Origin: Chloroflexota bacterium
Lineage (GTDB): Bacteria; Chloroflexota; UBA11872
DNA length: 64,000 nucleotides
Reading direction: 5' to 3'
Assembly: GCA_022825895.1 (NCBI GenBank)
Contig: JAJDVX010000019.1
Location: 1-64,000, forward strand
Of the stretch, positions 27,561-45,360 are shown in pieces. Both the position numbers and the translations under genes were made by a program. How positions within the stretch are numbered: the stretch's first letter is position 1; each line of letters begins with the position of its first letter. The notes below the pieces were generated by a model. The model made no database searches and was not told the DNA's origin. It saw only the letters and a program-made list of their open reading frames with translations.

Positions 27561-28991
27561 TCAGCCGCGATTCCGCGCTATGTAGTGCGGGCTGGTGTTG
27601 AAGAAGACCTCCGCGGCTTCCATCAGGGTTTCGGACGTGGTGGGGTGCGGGTGGATGCTCAGCCGCAGGTCGTCGACTCGGGCGCCCATCTCCACCGCAA
27701 GCACGCCTTCGGCAATGAGTTCGCCAGCGCCGCGGCCGGTGATCCCGACTCCCAGCACGCGTTCGGTCGTCGGCTCCAGAATGAGCTTCGTCAGCCCGTC
27801 ATTCCGCCCCAGCGTTGTTGCTCGACCCGAAGCCGCCCACGGAAACGATGCAACCTCGTGTGGCCGGCCGGAATCGCGGGCTTCGGCCTCGGTGAGGCCG
27901 CACCAGGCGATTTCAGGATCGGTGAACACCACCGCGGGGATCGCCTGCGCGTCATAGGTCATGGCGTGACCGGCGATGGCCGAAGCCGCGACATGCGCCT
28001 CGTACGTAGCCTTGTGCGCCAGCATCGGTTCGCCGGCCACGTCGCCGATGGCAAAAATGTGCGAGGCGGTTGTCCGGCGCTGGTGGTCAACCTTCACGAA
28101 GCCACGCTTGTCCGACTCCACTCCGGCAGCATCCAAACCCAAACTTGAGCTATTTGGGCGGCGTCCGACCGCAACGAGCACCTTCTCGAAGCACCGCGAC
28201 GGCTCTTCGACGCGCGCTCCTGCCAGCTCGACATCGACGCCGTCCGGCCGCACCTGCAGGCTCGCGACTCTCGTGCTGAGCAGAATCTCTGCAAACGCGG
28301 ATTCCAGCTTCCGCTCCAGCGGCCGAACCAGGTCGCGGTCGGCGCCGGGCAGCAGGCCGGTCTCCATCTCGACAACCGTCACATTCGATCCCAGCGCCGC
28401 ATACACCGATCCGAGTTCAAGCCCGATATAGCCCCCGCCAACGACCAGCAGCGTGCCCGGAATGTCGTCGATCTCCAGGGCCGACGTTGAATCAAGGACC
28501 CGTTCGCCGTCGATCTCGAATCCCGGCGGCGCCGCCGGCTGCGAGCCGGTGGCGATGACCGCGTAGTCAAACTCCAATCGCTGCGCGTCGCCGCCGTCGG
28601 TCGGCTCAATTCGCAGAGCGCGAGGATCCTCGAACTGTGCAAGTCCGCGGACGAATCGCACGCGTCGCGCTCGAGTGAGGAGTCCCAGACCGGAGGTCAT
28701 CTTGGAGATGACCTGGTCTTTCCAACTACGTAGCCGGTCCAGGTCGATCTCCGGGCGTCCGAAACTCACGCCCCAGTCAGCCGCATCCGCCGCCTCACCC
28801 AGCAGTGAAGCTACATGCAACAGAGTCTTCGAGGGTATGCAGCCGCGATAGAGGCACACGCCTCCGGGGTTCGCCTCGGGGTCGATGAGCGTCACGTCCA
28901 TGCCCAACTCGGCGGCGTGAAAGGCGGCCGGATAGCCACCCGGCCCCGCGCCAATCACGGCTACGCGCGGCTGCCGTCCGTCGGCGGTCAC
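27561..28991 (-). CDS. lpdA: Dihydrolipoamide dehydrogenase (E3)
   Basis: The 476-residue FAD enzyme reoxidises dihydrolipoyl groups of pyruvate dehydrogenase, making NADH. The FAD site is GAGPGGYPAAFHAAELG; the redox disulfide is C46-L-Y-R-G-C51, and the NAD site is VGGGYIGLELG. The C-terminal dimer motif HPHPTTSETLMEA has the catalytic His. GTG start at 28991 lies 7 bp after the aceF stop. It is last in the lipB-lipA-aceE-aceF-lpdA run. Confidence 0.95.
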   Translation of the reverse strand: MTADGRQPRVAVIGAGPGGYPAAFHAAELGMDVTLIDPEANPGGVCLYRGCIPSKTLLHVASLLGEAADAADWGVSFGRPEIDLDRLRSWKDQVISKMTSGLGLLTRARRVRFVRGLAQFEDPRALRIEPTDGGDAQRLEFDYAVIATGSQPAAPPGFEIDGERVLDSTSALEIDDIPGTLLVVGGGYIGLELGSVYAALGSNVTVVEMETGLLPGADRDLVRPLERKLESAFAEILLSTRVASLQVRPDGVDVELAGARVEEPSRCFEKVLVAVGRRPNSSSLGLDAAGVESDKRGFVKVDHQRRTTASHIFAIGDVAGEPMLAHKATYEAHVAASAIAGHAMTYDAQAIPAVVFTDPEIAWCGLTEAEARDSGRPHEVASFPWAASGRATTLGRNDGLTKLILEPTTERVLGVGITGRGAGELIAEGVLAVEMGARVDDLRLSIHPHPTTSETLMEAAEVFFNTSPHYIARNRG

Positions 28992-28998
28992 GGCCCGA

Positions 28999-30318
28999 CT
29001 AGTCCCCCATCGCCAGCATCAGCGGCTGGGCCAGCGCGTCGACGATCCAGGTCAGAAAGCGCGCACCGTCGGCGCCGTCCACGGCACGGTGGTCGAACGA
29101 AAGGGCCAGCGGCAACATCAGGCGCGGCCGCAGGAGTCCTTCGACGTACACGGGCTTCTCCACCGCGCGCCCAACGCCGAGGATTCCAACTTCGGGGGGA
29201 TTGATGATCGGCGTGAAGTGTCCCGTGCCGAGTCCGCCCAGGTTGCTGATCGTGAAGGAGGCGCCCTCCAGCCGCTCGGGCGGCAACTGGCCTTCGCGAA
29301 CCTGGGCGGCAACTTCGCTTACTTCAATCGCCAACTCAGTGATGCTCTTCTCGTCGACGTCCCGAATAACTGGCACCAGCAGCCCTCGCTCGGTGTCGGC
29401 GGCAACGCCCAGATGGCAATAGTCCTTCAGCACCATCTCGTTGGTGGTGAAGTCCGCGCTGGCGTTCATCTTGGGATGCGCCTTCAGCGCGGCGGCCACG
29501 ACCTTCATCAATATCGGCGTGATCGTCAGGCTGCCGCCGGCGCTCCGAACCCGGTCCTTCTCGCGCTGCCGCATCGCCTCCACGGCCGTGATGTCAGCCT
29601 CATTGAAAAGCGTGACGTGCGGAATAGTCGACCATGACTGCGCGATGTTGGTTGCGGTTGCGCGGCGCACCCGATTCAGGCGCTCTCGCTTGATCGCTCC
29701 AAACTTGCTGAAGTCGGGCAGCGGCGCAGCAACGAGTGGTCCAGGGGCTGCGGATGCCGTGGCCGGCCGAGACCGGGCGTGGGCCTTTACGTCGTCAACT
29801 GAAATGCGTCCGCCGGGGCCGGAGCCTGTGACTTCCCGGATATCCAGACCGATTTCGCGTGCGAACCCACGGGTTGACGGCGAGGCAAACACGGGCACGT
29901 CACCGCCAGCCGGTGGTGGCGGAGGTGGCGCGACGCGCGGCGGCGCGGTTGGCTTCGGTTGCGGTCTCGGTGGAGTTGGCGGACGCGCGGGAGTTGGCGC
30001 GGGCGTCTCGGTGACAGTGCCTGTGGATGGCTTAGCTGCAGGCGGTGGAGTTGTCACAGGCTTGCCGTCCGACGCCGAGCCGCTCTCATCCAGTTCAAGA
30101 ATCGTCTGACCGACCTGCAGCGTGTCGCCGGCGTTCACCAAGATCTGGGTCACAGTCCCGGCAATCTCAGCCGGGACTTCCAGGGTCGCCTTGTCGCTCT
30201 CGATCTCGATGATCGGATCGTCTTTGGCAACGGCCTGCCCTGCGCTGACGAGCACGCTCAGAACATCGGCGTCAGCAATGCCCTCGCCCAAGTCGGGGAG
30301 CTTCAGTTCAGTCGCCAT
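28999..30318 (-). CDS. aceF: Dihydrolipoamide acetyltransferase (E2)
   Basis: The 439-residue E2 subunit passes acetyl groups from pyruvate to CoA. One lipoyl domain (residues 1-78) has the modified lysine K43 in ESDKATLEVPA. A Pro-rich linker follows, then a peripheral-subunit-binding domain (SPSTRGFAREIGLDIREVTG) and the catalytic domain ending LALSFDHRAVDGADGARFL, with the HRAVDG active site. Only one lipoyl domain is present. It lies between aceE (30 bp) and lpdA (7 bp). Confidence 0.95.
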   Translation of the reverse strand: MATELKLPDLGEGIADADVLSVLVSAGQAVAKDDPIIEIESDKATLEVPAEIAGTVTQILVNAGDTLQVGQTILELDESGSASDGKPVTTPPPAAKPSTGTVTETPAPTPARPPTPPRPQPKPTAPPRVAPPPPPPAGGDVPVFASPSTRGFAREIGLDIREVTGSGPGGRISVDDVKAHARSRPATASAAPGPLVAAPLPDFSKFGAIKRERLNRVRRATATNIAQSWSTIPHVTLFNEADITAVEAMRQREKDRVRSAGGSLTITPILMKVVAAALKAHPKMNASADFTTNEMVLKDYCHLGVAADTERGLLVPVIRDVDEKSITELAIEVSEVAAQVREGQLPPERLEGASFTISNLGGLGTGHFTPIINPPEVGILGVGRAVEKPVYVEGLLRPRLMLPLALSFDHRAVDGADGARFLTWIVDALAQPLMLAMGD

Positions 30319-30348: not shown

Positions 30349-33060
<2,712 letters not shown>

Positions 33061-33119: not shown

Positions 33120-34019
33120 TTACCGTTCGCGCGTCAGGCCGGCTGCTTTCTCTCGGGCCGCGCGGGCCTGTTCCCCCGCATGGTACGAACTTCGCACCAA
33201 CGGTCCCGATTCAACGTGGGCGAAGCCAAGATCGCGCGCCTCGTCCGCCAGCTCGTCGAACTCGCCGGGACTGTAGTACCGGACGATCGGCAAGTGCTTG
33301 CGCGAGGGTCGCAAGTACTGGCCGATGGTGAGCAAGTCGCAATCGTGGTCCCGCAGGTCGGCCAGTGTCTTCGACAATTCGTCTCGCGTCTCGCCCAGCC
33401 CGACCATGATCCCCGACTTCGTAATCATGTTTCGATCGATTCGCTTGACTCGCTGCAGCAACTCGAGGGACTGGGTGTAGATCGCCTTGGGGCGCGCGCG
33501 CGAATAGAGCCGCGGCACCGTTTCGATGTTGTGGTTCAAGACGACTGGTCGAGCCCGAACAACCGTGGCCAGCGCGTCCCAGTTGCCCATGAAATCTGGA
33601 ATGAGCACTTCCACCTCCACGTGAGGCGTTCGGTGTCGAATGGCCCGGATGCAACCGGCGAATATGGCGGCGCCGCCGTCCGGCTCGTCATCCCGATTAA
33701 CCGAGGTAATCACGCAGTAATCGAGATCCATCTGCGCGACAGCCTGGGCCACTCGGAAGGGCTCCAGCGGATCAAGCGCACCGGGCCGGCCTGACGTAAC
33801 GGCACAGAAGCCGCAGGACCGGGTGCAAGTGTCGCCCAGGATCATGAACGTGGCTTCGCCGGCGTTCCAGCACTCGCCGATGTTCGGGCACCGGGCCTCT
33901 TCGCACACCGTGTGCAGGCGCTCGGCGCGCACAAGGTCGCGAAGGTCTTCGAACCGCTCGCCCCCGGGCACGCGCGCCCGCAGCCACGACGGTCGAGCTA
34001 CTCGAACCTCAGTGGCCAC
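33120..34019 (-). CDS. lipA: Lipoyl synthase
   Basis: The ~299-residue radical SAM enzyme inserts two sulfurs into octanoyl groups on E2 and similar proteins. The auxiliary cluster ligands are C39, C44, C50 ([12 protein letters not shown]); the radical SAM cluster ligands are C65, C69, C72 (CTRSCGFC); the C-terminal RSSYHA carries the Ser ligand. The GTG at 34019 has GGAG 7 nt upstream and overlaps the lipB stop by 11 bp. Operon position before aceE fits its job of activating AceF. Confidence 0.95.
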
Positions 34020-34698
34020 CAGCGGGCTCCATCGTGGGTGCCGCCGGTCGCACATCAGTCTGATAGACGTCCGCGAATGCCGCGGCCGCAGCAGCCATCA
34101 CATCGCCCATCGGCGGAGCAGCCCCCAGTTCGCGAGTCATCGAGGTGACACCGAGTCCATGCAATCCACACGGCACGATGGCATTGAACCACGTTAAGTC
34201 GTTCGCGACGTTGAGAGCCGCGCCGTGCATGGTCACGCCGCCCCGAATGGAAACGCCGATAGCCGAGATTTTTCTGTGGCCGATCCATACGCCCGGGCGT
34301 CCCTTGACCGTTCGACCCTTCAGGTCAAGGGCCGCCAACGTGTCCAGGACTATTCGTTCCAGGCAGCGCACGTGGTCGACCGGCCGTACGCCTCGGCGGC
34401 GCAAGTTGAGAATTGCGTAGAGCATCAGCTGGCCTGGGCCGTGAAAGGTGATGTCGCCGCCGCGGTCGGTCATGACCAGTTCAGCGCCTGTCTCGCGCAG
34501 GTCGCGACTGCTCAGCAGCATGTGGGCATCCCCGCCACGGGCGCCCATGGTGTAGACCGGCGGGTGCTCAAGTAACGCCAGCGCGTCGGCTGAGATCTCG
34601 TCACGAACTTCGGCGGCTTTCGTCTGTTGCCAGTCCAGCGCGTCGCGATAGGCCATGCATCCCAGGTCGTATAACTCGACCGGTAATTCCTTCGTCAC
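34009..34698 (-). CDS. lipB: Lipoyl(octanoyl) transferase
   Basis: The ~229-residue enzyme moves octanoyl groups from acyl carrier protein to lipoyl domains, the step before LipA. Motifs are [12 protein letters not shown], Lys143 in HRKISAIGV, and the catalytic Cys177 in [12 protein letters not shown]. The GTG at 34698 starts 7 bp after the upstream radical SAM gene stop; family similarity ([11 protein letters not shown]) begins there. Confidence 0.95.
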
Positions 34699-34705
34699 GG
34701 GCAGG

Positions 34706-36109
34706 CTACGCCGGGATCTCTTCAAGCGGGCTGAATTGCATGTCCGTCGGCTCGGCGCAACAGAACCAGGGCTCGGTAAGCCTCGGCCGGACGGGAAGCG
34801 GGCTGCCCGAGAAGTCTGGCCCCGGGCTGGCGGTCGCCTCGGGCGCCGCCGCGCGGACGGCCGCCCACATCCGTTCGAACAGAACGGCGTCGGGGGATTC
34901 CTCGGCAATTCCTATCTCGACGATCCCGGCCAGTTCTTCCTGTAGATCGTCGGAGCGCGGATCGTCTGCGCGCCATTCGTAGGTGAGCCGCTCCTCGTCG
35001 TAGCCGCGCAGGTGGGGAATCATCTCGGGTAGATCCAGCAGCAGCGAACCCTGCGGAACCAGCAACCGGATCGTGAATTGAACTGGATCCACATTGGCAT
35101 TCAGGTCGTGATCCCGTACGAACTCCATGATCGCCAGCACGTCGGCTGGCGTCGTCCACGGCGTAAACGGCATCCATGACGGACGAATCTCGATGCCGTG
35201 CCGGCGAAGCTGCCGAACGGTCTGCGCCGCCTCGGCTGCGGTGTGTCCCTTGTCCAGCCGCCGCAGAATCTCGTCGTTCACCGACTCGAACGCCGACACG
35301 ACAAACAGGCAGCCGGAGGCCGCGAACTCTTCCCAGGCATCCGCATGCTCCAGGATGTGCTCCACCTTGGTTGTCACGTCGAACGTCAGGTGTGGATGCC
35401 GGGCGTGCATCGTCCGCACCACGCGCTGCGAGTGGCGCACCCCATTCAGAAAATCAGGATCGGCAAAGGTGATATGGCGCGCACCGGCCTCGACGAGTTG
35501 GTCAATGTCGGCCAGCACCACGTCGGCGTCGATGATCCGAATCCGTCCGTCGTACACGATCGGGACCGGACAGTGGCGGCAGGTATGCACGCAGCCGCGG
35601 CTGGCCTCCGTATAGCCCACGGGCGACTCGTCATCGCCCAGTGCCATATGCGCGTAACGCGAAATGTCGGGCAGCAAGTGCCTGGCAGGCAGCACGCTGG
35701 CCCGACGGTCGAGGTCCACCTGCGGTTCGGTCGAGTCTTCACCCGAAGCCAGTCGGCCCAGCCAGCCGACCAGTCCGTGCTCGTATGCCCCGGCGATTTG
35801 GGCATCCGCGAGATTAGAACCGTTGGGGTGATGCTCCATTCCGGCATAGAGGCCATAGAAGGCAACTGGCATGTCAGGGTTGATCTGTCGGATGCGTTGC
35901 GCCGCTCGCTCCGCCAGCCTCGTGGCCGTGTGCATGGGAACCGATATGGCGACGGCCTCGGCCCAGGCCACGGCGTCGTCGTCCCACATTTCGACCGACA
36001 GGTCGAGGCAACGCACCTCGTGACCCGCTACCAGCAACGCCCCGGCCGCCGATGCCGCATGCAGCGGCTGGTGCCCGAGCTCGTACGTGGAGATCAGGAG
36101 CGTTCGCAT
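34706..36109 (-). CDS. CCAEP-tail B12-type radical SAM protein
   Basis: The 467-residue protein has an N-terminal Rossmann-like B12-binding-type domain (~1-150) and a radical SAM domain with C173-x3-C177-x2-C180 (RGCVHTCRHCP). The tail is W448-F-C450-C451-A-E-P. This fits the CUAEP/CCAEP-tail radical SAM (seleno)protein family, where the first C can be selenocysteine; here both codons are normal Cys (TGT, TGC). Substrate unknown. It is in a run with an ATP-grasp gene (34 bp upstream) and lipB (7 bp downstream). Confidence 0.8.
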   Translation of the reverse strand: MRTLLISTYELGHQPLHAASAAGALLVAGHEVRCLDLSVEMWDDDAVAWAEAVAISVPMHTATRLAERAAQRIRQINPDMPVAFYGLYAGMEHHPNGSNLADAQIAGAYEHGLVGWLGRLASGEDSTEPQVDLDRRASVLPARHLLPDISRYAHMALGDDESPVGYTEASRGCVHTCRHCPVPIVYDGRIRIIDADVVLADIDQLVEAGARHITFADPDFLNGVRHSQRVVRTMHARHPHLTFDVTTKVEHILEHADAWEEFAASGCLFVVSAFESVNDEILRRLDKGHTAAEAAQTVRQLRRHGIEIRPSWMPFTPWTTPADVLAIMEFVRDHDLNANVDPVQFTIRLLVPQGSLLLDLPEMIPHLRGYDEERLTYEWRADDPRSDDLQEELAGIVEIGIAEESPDAVLFERMWAAVRAAAPEATASPGPDFSGSPLPVRPRLTEPWFCCAEPTDMQFSPLEEIPA

Positions 36110-36143
36110 CGGCCAATGCTAGGAGTTTTTCCCTTCCTTCGCC

Positions 36144-37367
36144 CTAGTTTGGCGTGATCTCGAAGGTCAACTCGGCGTGAGCCGCGCGCAGCGCTGCTTC
36201 GACTTCCTCAGGATCCTGTCCCCGCGCGAAGACGAATCCGAGATAACGGCTGCCCTCGGGCAGAGGCACAAGCTCTTGGCCTTGCGAGATGGTGATCTCC
36301 ACGCCGGCCACGCCGTCGACTGCCCGGGCTTGGTCCACGCCGTGAACCGCGCGCAGGCGGCCGGCTTGGGGGATGGGCAGCATCATCACGCCCGCGGCAG
36401 CATCGGTCAGCCCCAGGTCGTGAATCGGCAGATCTAGCGCCTGGCGCAGGATGAGTTGCTCCAGGCTCACGCCCAGGCCAAACCTGAGCGAGCGCGCACA
36501 CAGTCCGCCGATTGACCGCGCCGCAATCTCAAGCAGCCAGGCGTTCCCGTCCCCTGTACGCAGTTCGGCGTGTATCGGTCCTTCGGACAGACCAAGCGCC
36601 TTCGCGGCGGCGGCCGTGACCGCGCGAATGGAACGCTGCGTGGCTGGCGTCAACCGCGACGGTGTGACGTAAATCGTCTCCTCGAAGAACGGACCGTCAA
36701 GTGGGTCGGGCTTGTCAAAGATCGCCAGGATTTCGAGCGATCCGCCCCGCATCAGTCCCTCAACGGCCACTTCGGCGCCAGGGACAAAGCGCTCCAGAAG
36801 AACCGGCTCACGCGGATCGCGACCCTGGGCCTGCGCAATCGAGCGCGTTCGCCCGATCGTTGCCGGCAAGTCGTCGGTCCGCTCGACGCGAATCACGCCC
36901 TGGCTGGCGGACAGCGACACCGGCTTCACGACCACCGGGAGTCCCAGGCGGGCGGCGGCCATCAGCGCATCGCCGTCGGACTTCAGGACTTCAAAATCGG
37001 GCTGCCGAACGCGAGCCGCTGCCAGGCGCCGCCGCATGTCCGCCTTGTTCCGGGTCGCGGTAATCGCTGGCGGCGGGTTGTGCGGCAGGCCAAGCTGCTC
37101 ACTGGCCAGCGCGGCCGTCGCCACCCCTTGATCGTCAACCGCCACGACGGCATCGACCACCGTGTCGCCTGCGTACTCGACGATCGCCGATGCGGCGACC
37201 TCCGGGTTGGCGAGATGGACTTCCAGCACACCGTCCTCGGCGTCCGACGCGGCTGGGTTGCGCCGGTCCGAGGCCACCGTGATATCTACGCCAAGCTGTC
37301 GCGCGGCTTGCAGGAAGTCGGCCGCTCGGTAGCTCTCGCTGTGAAGCAGTAGGACAACGTGCGCCAC
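36144..37367 (-). CDS. ATP-grasp enzyme
   Basis: A 407-residue ATP-grasp protein, which joins a carboxylate to an amine or thiol using ATP. The core includes NKADMRRRLAAARVRQPDFE, GLPVVVKPVSLSASQGV, ATP-binding lysines, and EIAARSIGGLCARSL near the Mg site. No fused domains. The GTG at 37367 is preceded by TAGAGG. It starts the run that includes the CCAEP radical SAM protein and lipoate genes, so it may work with the radical SAM protein; substrate unknown. Confidence 0.8.
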   Translation of the reverse strand: MAHVVLLLHSESYRAADFLQAARQLGVDITVASDRRNPAASDAEDGVLEVHLANPEVAASAIVEYAGDTVVDAVVAVDDQGVATAALASEQLGLPHNPPPAITATRNKADMRRRLAAARVRQPDFEVLKSDGDALMAAARLGLPVVVKPVSLSASQGVIRVERTDDLPATIGRTRSIAQAQGRDPREPVLLERFVPGAEVAVEGLMRGGSLEILAIFDKPDPLDGPFFEETIYVTPSRLTPATQRSIRAVTAAAAKALGLSEGPIHAELRTGDGNAWLLEIAARSIGGLCARSLRFGLGVSLEQLILRQALDLPIHDLGLTDAAAGVMMLPIPQAGRLRAVHGVDQARAVDGVAGVEITISQGQELVPLPEGSRYLGFVFARGQDPEEVEAALRAAHAELTFEITPN

Positions 37368-37417
37368 GCCTCTATCATAGGGGTGAGGCTACGGAGCGCC
37401 GCCAACAGGAAACCGTA

Positions 37418-38083
37418 ATGACGTTCGACAGCGCCGCAACAGACCAACCGCTGGTCGAGATTTCGGAAGCCGCCAGGGACCTAGTGCTCGCCTATCGCGG
37501 CCACTCCGACAAGCCAAACCCCGAGCGGCTGGCCATGTGGATCGAGATCACCGGCGTTTCCGGATCTGGCTTCAGCTACGACATGTATCTGAAGTCGGTT
37601 GACGACGCGACCCCCGAGGATGCCGTCGTGACCGCGGCCGAGGGCTTACAGGTGGTAATCCCGTCCGGCAGCGTGGACCAAATGCGCGGCTCGACAATCG
37701 ACCTCTCCGATTCGCCCGGCGGGGGCGGATTGTTCGTGCGCAATCCGCAGAGTCCCAGCCCCGCGGTCGGCAGTAGCAGCCCCGGCCACTCGACGGCTGC
37801 GCCCACTGGGCCCGTGGCCGAGCGCGTGATCAGCGTCCTGGACCACCAGATCAATCCGGCCATCGCCGCGCACGGCGGACACGCCGAGCTAGTCGCCGTG
37901 GAAGACGACACCGCGTACCTGAGACTGTCCGGCGGCTGCCAGGGTTGCGGTATGGCCAGCGTCACACTGTCGCAGGGCATTGAAGTCGCGCTCCGTGACA
38001 GCGTGCCGGAGCTTTCACGCGTGGTCGATGTGACGGACCATGCCGCGGGCGCCAACCCCTACTACGAAGCTGCCAAGAAGTAA
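37418..38083 (+). CDS. NfuA-like Fe-S carrier protein (HesB-like + NifU domains)
   Basis: A 221-residue protein. The N-terminal ~100 residues resemble an A-type (HesB/IscA) scaffold but lack its Cys triad. The C-terminal NifU domain (~130-205) has C174-Q-G-C177-GMA, which binds an Fe-S cluster, plus the HGGHAELVAVEDDTAYLRL core. NfuA-type proteins rebuild the auxiliary cluster that LipA destroys each cycle. It is divergent from the lipA run (50 bp gap), which supports that role. Confidence 0.85.
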   Translation: MTFDSAATDQPLVEISEAARDLVLAYRGHSDKPNPERLAMWIEITGVSGSGFSYDMYLKSVDDATPEDAVVTAAEGLQVVIPSGSVDQMRGSTIDLSDSPGGGGLFVRNPQSPSPAVGSSSPGHSTAAPTGPVAERVISVLDHQINPAIAAHGGHAELVAVEDDTAYLRLSGGCQGCGMASVTLSQGIEVALRDSVPELSRVVDVTDHAAGANPYYEAAKK

Positions 38084-38149
38084 GCTTCTCGCCAGCAAGT
38101 AGCCGCAGCGACCGGCCAGAAGTTGCGGGCCTGACGGGGGATACGTGCC

Positions 38150-38857
38150 ATGACCAATGACCTTGCTGACCTCGCCTCCCAGTTGCAGTCCGGGTTGGCG
38201 CTTGATTTCCCACCGGTGGCGTTGACGCGCGTTGCCAAGGCTCCGGACGGTATCGCCGAGGCAATAGCCGCCGTCCCATCCGCCTGCACGTTCTGGCGTC
38301 GCGCCGAGCGCGGCGTTTTCTTCGCCGATGCCCAGTCGCACATGGCCTGTCCCATCGGCGCCATGGTGATGGGGTTTGAACTGGATGAAGCCAAGAGCGC
38401 GGAACTGATGGGCCTGGTCGGCGACATGTGCGCTATCAATTACATCGATGAAGCCGAAGTCGCCAACATCCCGCACTTCGATCCGCCCGCCGGCGGCATC
38501 GTCTACGGCCCGCTGGCCGACTTCCCGTTGGTTCCCGACGCGGTGGTGGTCTGGACCACGCCACGACAGGCCATGCTCCTCGAAGAAGCGCTGGGCGGAA
38601 CGCACTGGCACGGCGCTGGCGGTTCCATCCTCGGCCGGCCCGCATGTGCGGCCCTGCCACGCGCCGTGGCTGACGGAACGGCCACGCTATCCGTCGGCTG
38701 TGCCGGCATGCGCACCTTCACCGAGATTCCCGACGCCTATACCCTCACCGCGATTCCGGGAGCGCAGCTTGCGGGTCTCGGCGAGGCCCTTGAGACCACG
38801 CTGTCCGCCAACACGCACATGCTGGCGGCCTATCGGGAAATGAAGGCTGCCGTTTAG
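38150..38857 (+). CDS. DUF169-family protein
   Basis: A 235-residue protein of the DUF169 type. Features: PPVALTRVAKAPDG, SACTFWRRAERGVFFAD, HMACPIGAMVMGF, VVVWTTPRQAMLL and a late CAGMRTFTEIPD. The repeated Cys residues suggest metal or cluster binding, but the role is unknown. It is 66 bp after the NfuA-like gene on the same strand, so they are likely co-transcribed. Confidence 0.8.
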   Translation: MTNDLADLASQLQSGLALDFPPVALTRVAKAPDGIAEAIAAVPSACTFWRRAERGVFFADAQSHMACPIGAMVMGFELDEAKSAELMGLVGDMCAINYIDEAEVANIPHFDPPAGGIVYGPLADFPLVPDAVVVWTTPRQAMLLEEALGGTHWHGAGGSILGRPACAALPRAVADGTATLSVGCAGMRTFTEIPDAYTLTAIPGAQLAGLGEALETTLSANTHMLAAYREMKAAV

Positions 38858-43400: not shown

Positions 43401-45360
43401 GGGCAGCCTCCGCTTGGAGGAGTTGCGCGCGGAGCGACACATAGACGATCAGGCACTCGGGGTTCGCCAGTGACTCGCGATTGGTCACCGGATCGCCTCG
43501 AAGGATGCGCGTGACGGTCAACTCCGCCAGCTTCCCGTTGCGAGTTCGCGGCAGATCGGGCACGGCAAGAATGCGGCGCGGTACGTGGCGGGGCGAGGCC
43601 GACGTTCGAATCGCGCGTTGAATCTCCGTTCGCAGTGCAACATCAAGCTCGTGCTCGGGTCGAAGGACCACGAAGAGCGCGATTTCGTCGCGGCCTTCGC
43701 GATTCACGGTCGCAGCCAGACCTGCAACGACCTCGGGAATGGTCTCCAAAGGTCGATAGATTTCAGCCGTTCCGATGCGGACGCCGCCCGGCATCAGGGT
43801 TGCGTCGCTGCGGCCGAGAATGACGATGCCGCCGTGTGCCGTGATCTCGATGAAGTCGCCGTGACGCCAGACCCCCGGATACATCTCAAAGTACGACGCG
43901 CGATACCGCTCGCCGTCGGGATCATTCCAAAACCGCACCGGCATCGAGGGGAATGGTCTTCGGCAGACAAGCTCGCCCTTTTGGCTCTGCACCGAGCTCC
44001 CGCGCTCGTCGAAGGCGGCGACATCCATGCCCAACCCAGCGCATTGAATTTCGCCCGCGTAGACCGGAAGCAGCGGATTACCCAGCACAAAGCACGACAC
44101 GATGTCGGTGCCGCCTGAAATGGATGCCAGGTGCAGATTGCCGTTGACGTTGGCGTATACCCAGCGGAAGGCGTCCGGCGACAGCGGGGAGCCGGTGGAT
44201 AGCAGCGTGCGCAGCGACGAGAGGTCGGCTACGTCGCGCGGGCGGATGCGATCGCGCATACAGGCTTCGACAAACGACGCGCTGGTTCCGAAGACCGTTA
44301 CCCCAAGCTCGTCGGCCAGGCGCCAAGCGGTCGAAAGATCGGGGTGGTTCAGGCTGCCCTCGTAGAGGACGAGGGTGCAGCCGGTGGCCAGGGCCGAGAC
44401 CAGCCAGTTCCACATCATCCAACCGCAGGTGGTGAAGTAGACGATCGTGTCGTCGGCCCGCAGGTCGGTGTGGAGTTGGTGTTCCTTGCGGTGTTGCAGG
44501 AGCGTGCCGCCGGCGCCGTGGACCATGCACTTGGGCGCTCCGGTGGTGCCCGACGAGTACAGGATGTAGAGCGGGTGATTGAACGGTAGCGCGGCGAATT
44601 CGGGCTGGTGGCTGGTTGCCAGACTCAGAAGGTCGTCCCAGTTGAGCCAGTTCTTGGGCATCTCGGCCGTTGGCGATCCGCCGAAGGGAACCACGACGAC
44701 GTGCTGGATCGACGGTATCTGCGAGTTGAGGGCCCGGATGATCGGAAGGCAGTCGAAAGGGCGGCCGTTGTAGGTGTAGTGGTCGCTGGCGATGAGGAGG
44801 CGAGGTTCGATCTGGCCGAGGCGGTCGCGGGCGGCGGCGGCGCCGAAGTCGGGTGAGCAGGCGCTCCAGATGGCGCCGAGGCTGGCGCAGGCGAGGAAGG
44901 CGATGACGGTCTCGGGGCCGTTGACCAGGTAGCCGACGACGTGGTCGCCGGGCTGAATGCCCAGGTGGCGCAGGGCGCTGGCACAGCGGCCGACCTGGGT
45001 GCGTAACTCGGCGTAGGTCAGGCGGCGGGTTTGGCCGGACTCGGTGCGGTAGACGAGGGCGAGCTTGTCGTCGCGGCGGCGGAGCAGGTGTTCGGCGTAG
45101 TTGAGGGTGGCGCCGCGGAACCACCGGGTGCCGGGCATGCGGTCGGGGCCCTTGACTTCGACGGGTGGGTCGGCGAAGCGGATGTCGGCGAAGTCGGCGT
45201 AGAGGGACCAGAAGTCGGCGCTGTGGTCGACGGACCAGCGGTGGAGGGCGGGGTAGTCGGGGAAACGCCGGCCGGTGTGGGCCTCGGCGGCGCGCCAGAA
45301 GCGGGCCATGGCGCTGGTGGTGAGCGCAGCCGGGTCGGGGCGCCAGAGGGGGGCGGTCAA
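43393..45360 (-). CDS. Acetoacetyl-CoA synthetase
   Basis: A ~655-residue AMP-forming acyl-CoA synthetase. The family's own start (APLWRPDP...MARFWRAAE) and [12 protein letters not shown] are present; the AMP-binding P-loop is [21 protein letters not shown], with GGTDIVSC and [11 protein letters not shown]; the CoA region has RTRNGKLAE. It activates acetoacetate to acetoacetyl-CoA. The TTG start at 45360 has GGAG upstream, gives the family length, and overlaps the leader-ORF stop (TTGA). Confidence 0.9.

Follow-up and report, generated by a model that had tools for sequence, protein, structure and literature searches.

ArsL, the radical S-adenosylmethionine (SAM) enzyme of arsinothricin biosynthesis, is described in sections of PMC8552651 as an enzyme that uses three cysteines for one cluster and transfers an aminocarboxypropyl (ACP) group from SAM. 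Its product is an arsenic-containing amino acid. The same sections name Dph1–Dph2 as the other radical SAM ACP transfer, and tandem cysteines are discussed in PMC11048331. NF040546, the "CUAEP/CCAEP-tail radical SAM (seleno)protein" family, is catalogued and functionally blank, and at least 560 loci in species genomes encode relatives of the protein studied here. Here we analyze the member of this family that is encoded in a 64,000-nucleotide stretch of a Chloroflexota bacterium (contig JAJDVX010000019.1; "the window" denotes this whole stretch), where its gene stands between an ATP-grasp gene and a run of lipoate and pyruvate dehydrogenase (PDH) genes. We tentatively propose that the radical SAM and ATP-grasp proteins together form the functional unit, to which the lipoate run does not belong, and that this pair uses ArsL-like ACP chemistry to make a peptide product with a role in iron or iron–sulfur (Fe–S) metabolism. 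While the family itself was already catalogued, its links to ArsL, to an L-amino-acid-ligase partner, and to iron genes appear to be undescribed; in the open-licence PMC literature, we found no paper on CUAEP, on CCAEP, or on a radical SAM selenoprotein together with arsinothricin.

The radical SAM protein and its kinship with ArsL

The gene and the elements of the protein that matter here are located as follows:

34706..36109, minus strand: CCAEP-tail radical SAM protein, 467 residues (NF040546, 552.3 bits; AlphaFold2 model with a predicted local distance difference test score, pLDDT, of 93.9)
35570..35593, minus strand: CX3CX2C radical SAM cluster motif, codons of residues 173–180 (C173, C177, and C180 invariant in 51 sequences)
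34745..34786, minus strand: conserved tail PRLTEPWFCCAEPT, codons of residues 442–455 (92% mean column conservation; selenocysteine (Sec, TGA) or cysteine (Cys) at the second position in relatives)
34757..34762, minus strand: codons of the vicinal Cys450–Cys451 (both invariant in the 51-sequence alignment, Sec counted as C)

With 552.3 bits against a cut-off of 500, the protein belongs to NF040546, and its tail reads WFCCAEP in the window, so that the original prediction, made from the letters alone, was right both about the family and about the non-seleno Cys-Cys-Ala-Glu-Pro form of the tail. Relatives were taken from two sets of loci. The 80 named loci are the top ones among at least 560 matches to the window protein in species genomes, a sample that leans towards the query, and the 60 phylum-set loci derive from a single draw of 301 genomes that belong to the window's phylum. 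Of these genomes, 74 hold the radical SAM gene (70 above the NF040546 cut-off and four below it, G231, G218, G286, and G259), and the loci picked from them comprise the window's own family (f1) and the best-scoring or longest-contig others; some organisms are present in both sets. The motif W[FY]C[CU][AS]EP was found in 78 of the 80 named relatives, the other two being affected by a contig end (L168) or a disrupted frame (L160), and the tail is thus no chance occurrence. A stricter 13-residue pattern was found in 75/80 named sequences (17 with Sec, 58 with Cys) and in 61/61 of the phylum set including the window (28 with Sec, 33 with Cys). On the tree of the radical SAM proteins, from which fragments and broken or cut frames (L046, L048, L157, L160, and L168) and any row below 400 residues were omitted, at least 16 changes between Cys and Sec are required, which suggests that this position is chemically active; the swap also offers a natural means of probing what the tail does. 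In an alignment of 51 CUAEP/CCAEP sequences, the mean column conservation is 92% in the tail, 30% in the preceding linker, 32% after the tail, and 63% in the core. Since the tail is conserved and its linker is variable, the tail is, as judged from this pattern, a working part of the protein, carried on a variable linker.

The only invariant cysteines in the same alignment, in which Sec positions were entered as C, are those of the CX3CX2C motif (173, 177, 180) and the tail pair (450, 451); no further Cys is invariant or even 90% conserved among the 51 sequences. There is thus no sign of an auxiliary Fe–S cluster, which makes a lipoyl-type sulfur insertion unlikely, and sulfur insertion from an auxiliary cluster was rejected as a candidate reaction because conserved cysteines for such a cluster are lacking. 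The fold neighbors of the AlphaFold2 model include AprD4 (Z 26.8), MgmA, OxsB, TsrM, and MiaB (Z about 23), among them the B12 enzymes MgmA, OxsB, and TsrM, and the B12-binding domain PF02310 gives a weak match of 28.2 bits, under the cut-off of 32.1. In RlmN and Cfr, a Cys of the C-terminal region is used in catalysis. These points would suit a canonical 5'-deoxyadenosyl or a B12-dependent radical SAM enzyme whose substrate is either a metabolite or a peptide product of the ATP-grasp protein, with the Cys-Sec tail as redox relay or catalytic acid/base. We regard such an enzyme as possible but rather doubtful, as ArsL is far closer by sequence, with 290 bits against 50 for the next family.

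ArsL (NF040542) is the second NCBIfam match of the window protein, with 290.1 bits over residues 3–393, and the third match reaches only 49.8 bits. A Rhodospirillaceae relative gives the same pattern (609.5 bits for NF040546, 281.2 for ArsL, 53.7 for the next family). The alignment with plasmid-encoded ArsL proteins spans the full length; these proteins terminate in RCCLKC, and its CC coincides with that of the CCAEP tail. By these comparisons, ArsL is the only strong characterized relative. The earlier statement that no reaction is known remains correct for the family itself and does not extend to ArsL, its sole close characterized relative, whose reaction is known.

That the window protein makes an organoarsenical as an orthologue of ArsL is, in our view, highly improbable. 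The homology, the tail, and the occurrence of ATP-grasp genes also in ArsL loci would agree with this, but the protein scores under the ArsL cut-off, and among 125 CUAEP loci there was no match for arsH, arsC, arsQ, ArsN1, or the GTP-binding protein, and only sporadic matches of other ars types (arsM-like with 27–32% identity in four loci, ArsB-like in five, ArsR-like in two). As no ars gene set accompanies these loci, arsenic as the substrate is unsupported.

The ATP-grasp ligase partner

The partner gene lies on the same strand, separated from the radical SAM gene by 34 bp:

36144..37367, minus strand: ATP-grasp ligase of the L-amino-acid-ligase type, 407 residues (PF13535, PF18603; closest solved chain 3vot, BL00235)

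The protein contains the domains of an L-amino acid ligase, PF13535 with 107.5 bits and PF18603, the L-amino-acid-ligase C-terminal domain LAL_C2, with 70.7 bits. Amino acids derived from ACP transfer have the carbon skeleton of methionine. The closest solved chain, BL00235 (3vot; 127 bits by phmmer), forms Met-Gly according to a portion of PMC6920838, and by analogy this fits a methionine-like ACP substrate without proving it.

Of the 74 genomes with the radical SAM gene, 72 have the orthologous ATP-grasp gene, compared with 23 of the 227 genomes that lack the radical SAM gene (Fisher p 3e-46; our Fisher tests of co-occurrence ignore phylogeny), and when counted by family code, the ATP-grasp gene occurs in 18/18 families with the radical SAM gene and in 7/63 others. 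Both genomes in which the radical SAM gene occurs without the ATP-grasp gene (G188 and G259) have fragmented assemblies of 84% completeness. The two genes are often unlinked (e.g., L187, L188, and L190–L192), and the co-occurrence is therefore more than mere linkage. Moreover, the pairwise identities of the two proteins correlate (Spearman 0.70 for 1485 pairs from 55 loci, and 0.63 for radical SAM pairs below 60% identity). These data bear on the idea of genomic hitch-hiking, by which the ATP-grasp, NfuA-like, and YggX genes would be co-regulated, in response to iron or oxidative stress, and would share no pathway with the radical SAM protein. Pairs of ATP-grasp and NfuA-like genes do persist where the radical SAM gene is absent, but the radical SAM gene almost never occurs without the ATP-grasp gene, even when the two are unlinked, and we hold hitch-hiking to be improbable.

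Five of the six ArsL loci that we fetched also hold a gene annotated as ATP-grasp (Alicyclobacillus, two Priestia, Klebsiella, and Pantoea), the locus without it being that of Pseudomonas amygdali. On the ArsL plasmids, ATP-grasp and GTP-binding protein genes lie beside arsM or other ars genes (L174, L175, L176, L197, and L198). A search of the open-licence PMC literature for arsinothricin together with ATP-grasp found no paper, and a peptide form of arsinothricin may be worth a look. At the sequence level, the pairing of a radical SAM protein with a ligase looks like the same logic in the ArsL and CUAEP systems, realized by different ligases.

Lipoate, iron, and DUF169 neighbors

The arrangement of the surrounding genes is as originally predicted and is borne out by the open reading frames and family matches: lpdA, aceF, aceE, lipA, lipB, and the radical SAM and ATP-grasp genes lie on the minus strand, and an NfuA-like and a DUF169 gene run divergently on the plus strand.

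27561..28991, minus strand: lpdA (TIGR01350, 466.8 bits; local neighbor)
28999..30318, minus strand: aceF-type E2 (best match TIGR01348, 455.6 bits, under the cut-off of 552.1; local neighbor)
30349..33060, minus strand: aceE (TIGR00759, 1376.6 bits; neighbor in f1 and in one actinobacterial clade)
33120..34055, minus strand: lipA (TIGR00510, 383.5 bits; local neighbor)
34009..34698, minus strand: lipB, start taken as GTG 34698 (TIGR00214; local neighbor, outside the conserved module)
37368..37417, no strand: 50-bp region that separates the divergent ATP-grasp and NfuA-like genes (from coordinates)
37418..38083, plus strand: NfuA-like Fe–S carrier with A-type-like and NifU domains (TIGR03341, 103.5 bits, cut-off 269.35; PF01106)
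38150..38857, plus strand: DUF169 protein (PF02596, 81.9 bits; C46, C67, C166, and C184 invariant)

The start of lipB is most likely GTG 34698, 7 bp after the stop of the radical SAM gene; the listed TTG 34908 overlaps that gene. Elsewhere in the window, the GC skew shifts near window position 44000, from about -0.01 (40–44 kb) to +0.24 (44–48 kb).

From the genetic company, the original prediction had suggested a link of the radical SAM protein to lipoyl or to Fe–S/sulfur chemistry. We counted genes within 6 kb of the radical SAM gene as neighbors, and since absences on short contigs are uninformative, we also used a full-flank subset with at least 5 kb on both sides; outside f1, there were 70 named and 44 same-phylum loci, of which 32 and 30, respectively, were full-flank. 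Within f1, lipA and aceE are near the radical SAM gene in every locus fetched (16/16 in the phylum set, 10/10 named). Outside f1, lipA was found in 0/70 named and 0/44 same-phylum loci (full-flank 0/32 and 0/30), and aceE in 9/70 and 0/44 (full-flank 3/32 and 0/30). The nine aceE loci are actinobacterial, mostly Acidimicrobiia (L129, L132, L133, L134, L138, L146, L160, L162, and L167), with aceE divergent beside the radical SAM gene and 55–58% identical to aceE of the window. Eight of them form one clade of the tree, apart from f1; the ninth, L160, is not in the tree. The lipoate genes beside the radical SAM gene are thus an arrangement local to one family, and we rejected lipoate/PDH as the general context of the protein, save that aceE recurs in one further clade. 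The comparison of neighbors across genomes with the CUAEP/CCAEP tail had been proposed together with the original prediction, and a radical SAM/ATP-grasp pair that occurs mostly without lipoate genes, as we found it, had been named in advance as the outcome that would refute the link; here it does so for the lipoate part.

It is accordingly improbable, in our judgment, that the radical SAM protein modifies or serves the lipoyl/PDH system, for example by an alternative lipoate-type sulfur insertion or by modification of a lipoyl protein. The constant presence of lipA and aceE in f1 and the second, separate clade with aceE count in its favor, as does the repair of the LipA cluster by NfuA-type proteins in E. 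coli, but in addition to the neighbor counts, the lack of conserved auxiliary-cluster cysteines argues against it, and the ATP-grasp partner would be left unexplained.

The Fe–S part of the suggested link fared better. Outside f1, ATP-grasp and NfuA-like genes were each found in 37/70 named loci and DUF169 in 18/70, and the same-phylum loci hold ATP-grasp in 25/44, YggX in 30/44, a formyltransferase-like gene in 29/44, NfuA-like in 6/44, and DUF169 in 5/44; none of these five module genes is nearby in 3/30 phylum-set full-flank loci. Among all loci fetched, the ATP-grasp gene is head-to-head with an NfuA-like gene in 59, and in other Chloroflexota, it lies beside YggX and the formyltransferase-like gene. 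The label "NfuA-like" was apt, as the window protein has a NifU domain and reaches 103.5 bits, under the NfuA (TIGR03341) cut-off of 269.35; its gene is the only NifU-domain gene found in its genome. Among the 301 genomes, the formyltransferase-like family is present in 43, of which 42 have the radical SAM gene; in the one other genome, G258, the assembly is fragmented and contains part of the ATP-grasp gene. Two of these proteins (L087:2633-3601 and L061:4448-5413) score below the fmt cut-off (126.7 and 110.5 versus 201.5 bits), and the family retains the invariant N, H, and D residues. DUF169 occurs in 49/74 radical SAM genomes versus 29/227 others. The four cysteines C46, C67, C166, and C184 are invariant in an alignment of the DUF169 proteins near the module (window, L047, L062, L065, L110, L117, L125, L135, L141, L159, and L166), which suggests a possible metal or Fe–S site; the DUF169 model (pLDDT 88) gave no PDB fold match at E up to 0.001, and the fold thus offers no hint of a function.

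A candidate pathway and its known counterparts

In the pathway that we tentatively propose, the radical SAM protein probably takes ACP from SAM and passes it to a soft acceptor, probably other than arsenic, and the mobile C-terminal Cys-Cys or Cys-Sec pair would bind or activate this acceptor. The resulting amino acid would resemble methionine in its carbon skeleton, and the L-amino-acid-ligase-type ATP-grasp protein would then couple it to another amino acid, resulting in a peptide. Several Chloroflexota lineages may, in addition, use a dedicated formyltransferase-like protein to cap the amine, and the recurrent iron neighbors, NfuA-like or YggX, suggest that the product could serve iron/Fe–S or redox homeostasis. 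A more specific and, as a whole, unlikely version would be an undescribed pathway with a wide distribution that includes Chloroflexota and Actinomycetota among other phyla. In this version, an enzyme of the ArsL type with a Cys/Sec tail would move ACP from SAM onto a soft atom other than arsenic, such as sulfur or selenium, and the ATP-grasp protein would make a peptide, formyl-capped in some lineages, as a new low-molecular-weight thiol or selenol or metal ligand for Fe–S/iron homeostasis. A new thiol as product is speculative; in the window genome, the mycothiol MshA model gave only matches below its cut-off (best 120.9 versus 462.5 bits), other thiol pathways not having been searched.

Several findings weigh against the proposed pathway. 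With 290.1 bits against a cut-off of 450, the radical SAM protein falls outside the ArsL family, its identity to ArsL is 29–35%, and its tail differs from RCCLKC in lacking the third cysteine. None of the ATP-grasp, NfuA-like, YggX, DUF169, and formyltransferase genes is nearby in 12/32 named full-flank loci outside f1. The ATP-grasp gene is present without the radical SAM gene in 23 genomes, so the ligase has or can have another substrate, which weakens a strictly linear pathway. Among ten loci fetched without the radical SAM gene, seven have the ATP-grasp gene head-to-head with an NfuA-like gene (L177, L178, L180–L182, L185, and L186), and the product of the radical SAM protein is therefore not an obligate substrate of the ligase; in the remaining loci, an NfuA-like gene is about 2 kb away, start to start (L183), YggX and the formyltransferase-like gene are present (L184), or neither is found (L179). 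Finally, three ArsL-linked ATP-grasp proteins that we compared with that of the window gave 87, 76, and 52 bits by BLASTP, the two that were aligned are 21% identical to it, and BL00235 outscores them (127 bits by phmmer versus 87 by BLASTP, the programs being different). The ligase was thus probably recruited independently, and at 21% identity, an ancient ATP-grasp partner inherited jointly with ArsL is unsupported.

Nevertheless, the tie to ArsL, the near-obligate ligase, and the iron genes turn a functionally blank family into a testable reaction, with methylthioadenosine release, an ACP adduct, and a dipeptide as the expected outcomes. Should ArsL-like chemistry take place on an acceptor other than arsenic, the range of acceptors for radical ACP transfer would be extended, and the products could possibly be a new small-molecule class in hard-to-culture bacteria.

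Within NF040546, an NCBIfam equivalog for which a function is not given, the window protein, being of the Cys form, is an ordinary member and shows no difference. It has full-length homology, the CX3CX2C motif, and a CC-containing terminal tail in common with ArsL of arsinothricin biosynthesis, whereas ArsL ends with RCCLKC and lies in an arsenic gene neighborhood, and the CUAEP proteins carry WFC[C/U]AEP after a variable linker, allow Sec, occur across several phyla, and have no ars gene set nearby. Dph1–Dph2, likened here by its literature description, differs from the window protein by its protein substrate and its non-canonical cluster motif. With LipA and MiaB, the common feature is the radical SAM core fold, and the window protein lacks conserved auxiliary-cluster cysteines. 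The ATP-grasp protein shares PF13535 and PF18603 with the L-amino acid ligases BL00235 and BacD, and in contrast to these, it represents an orthologous group of its own that is partnered by the radical SAM protein and by NfuA-like or YggX proteins.

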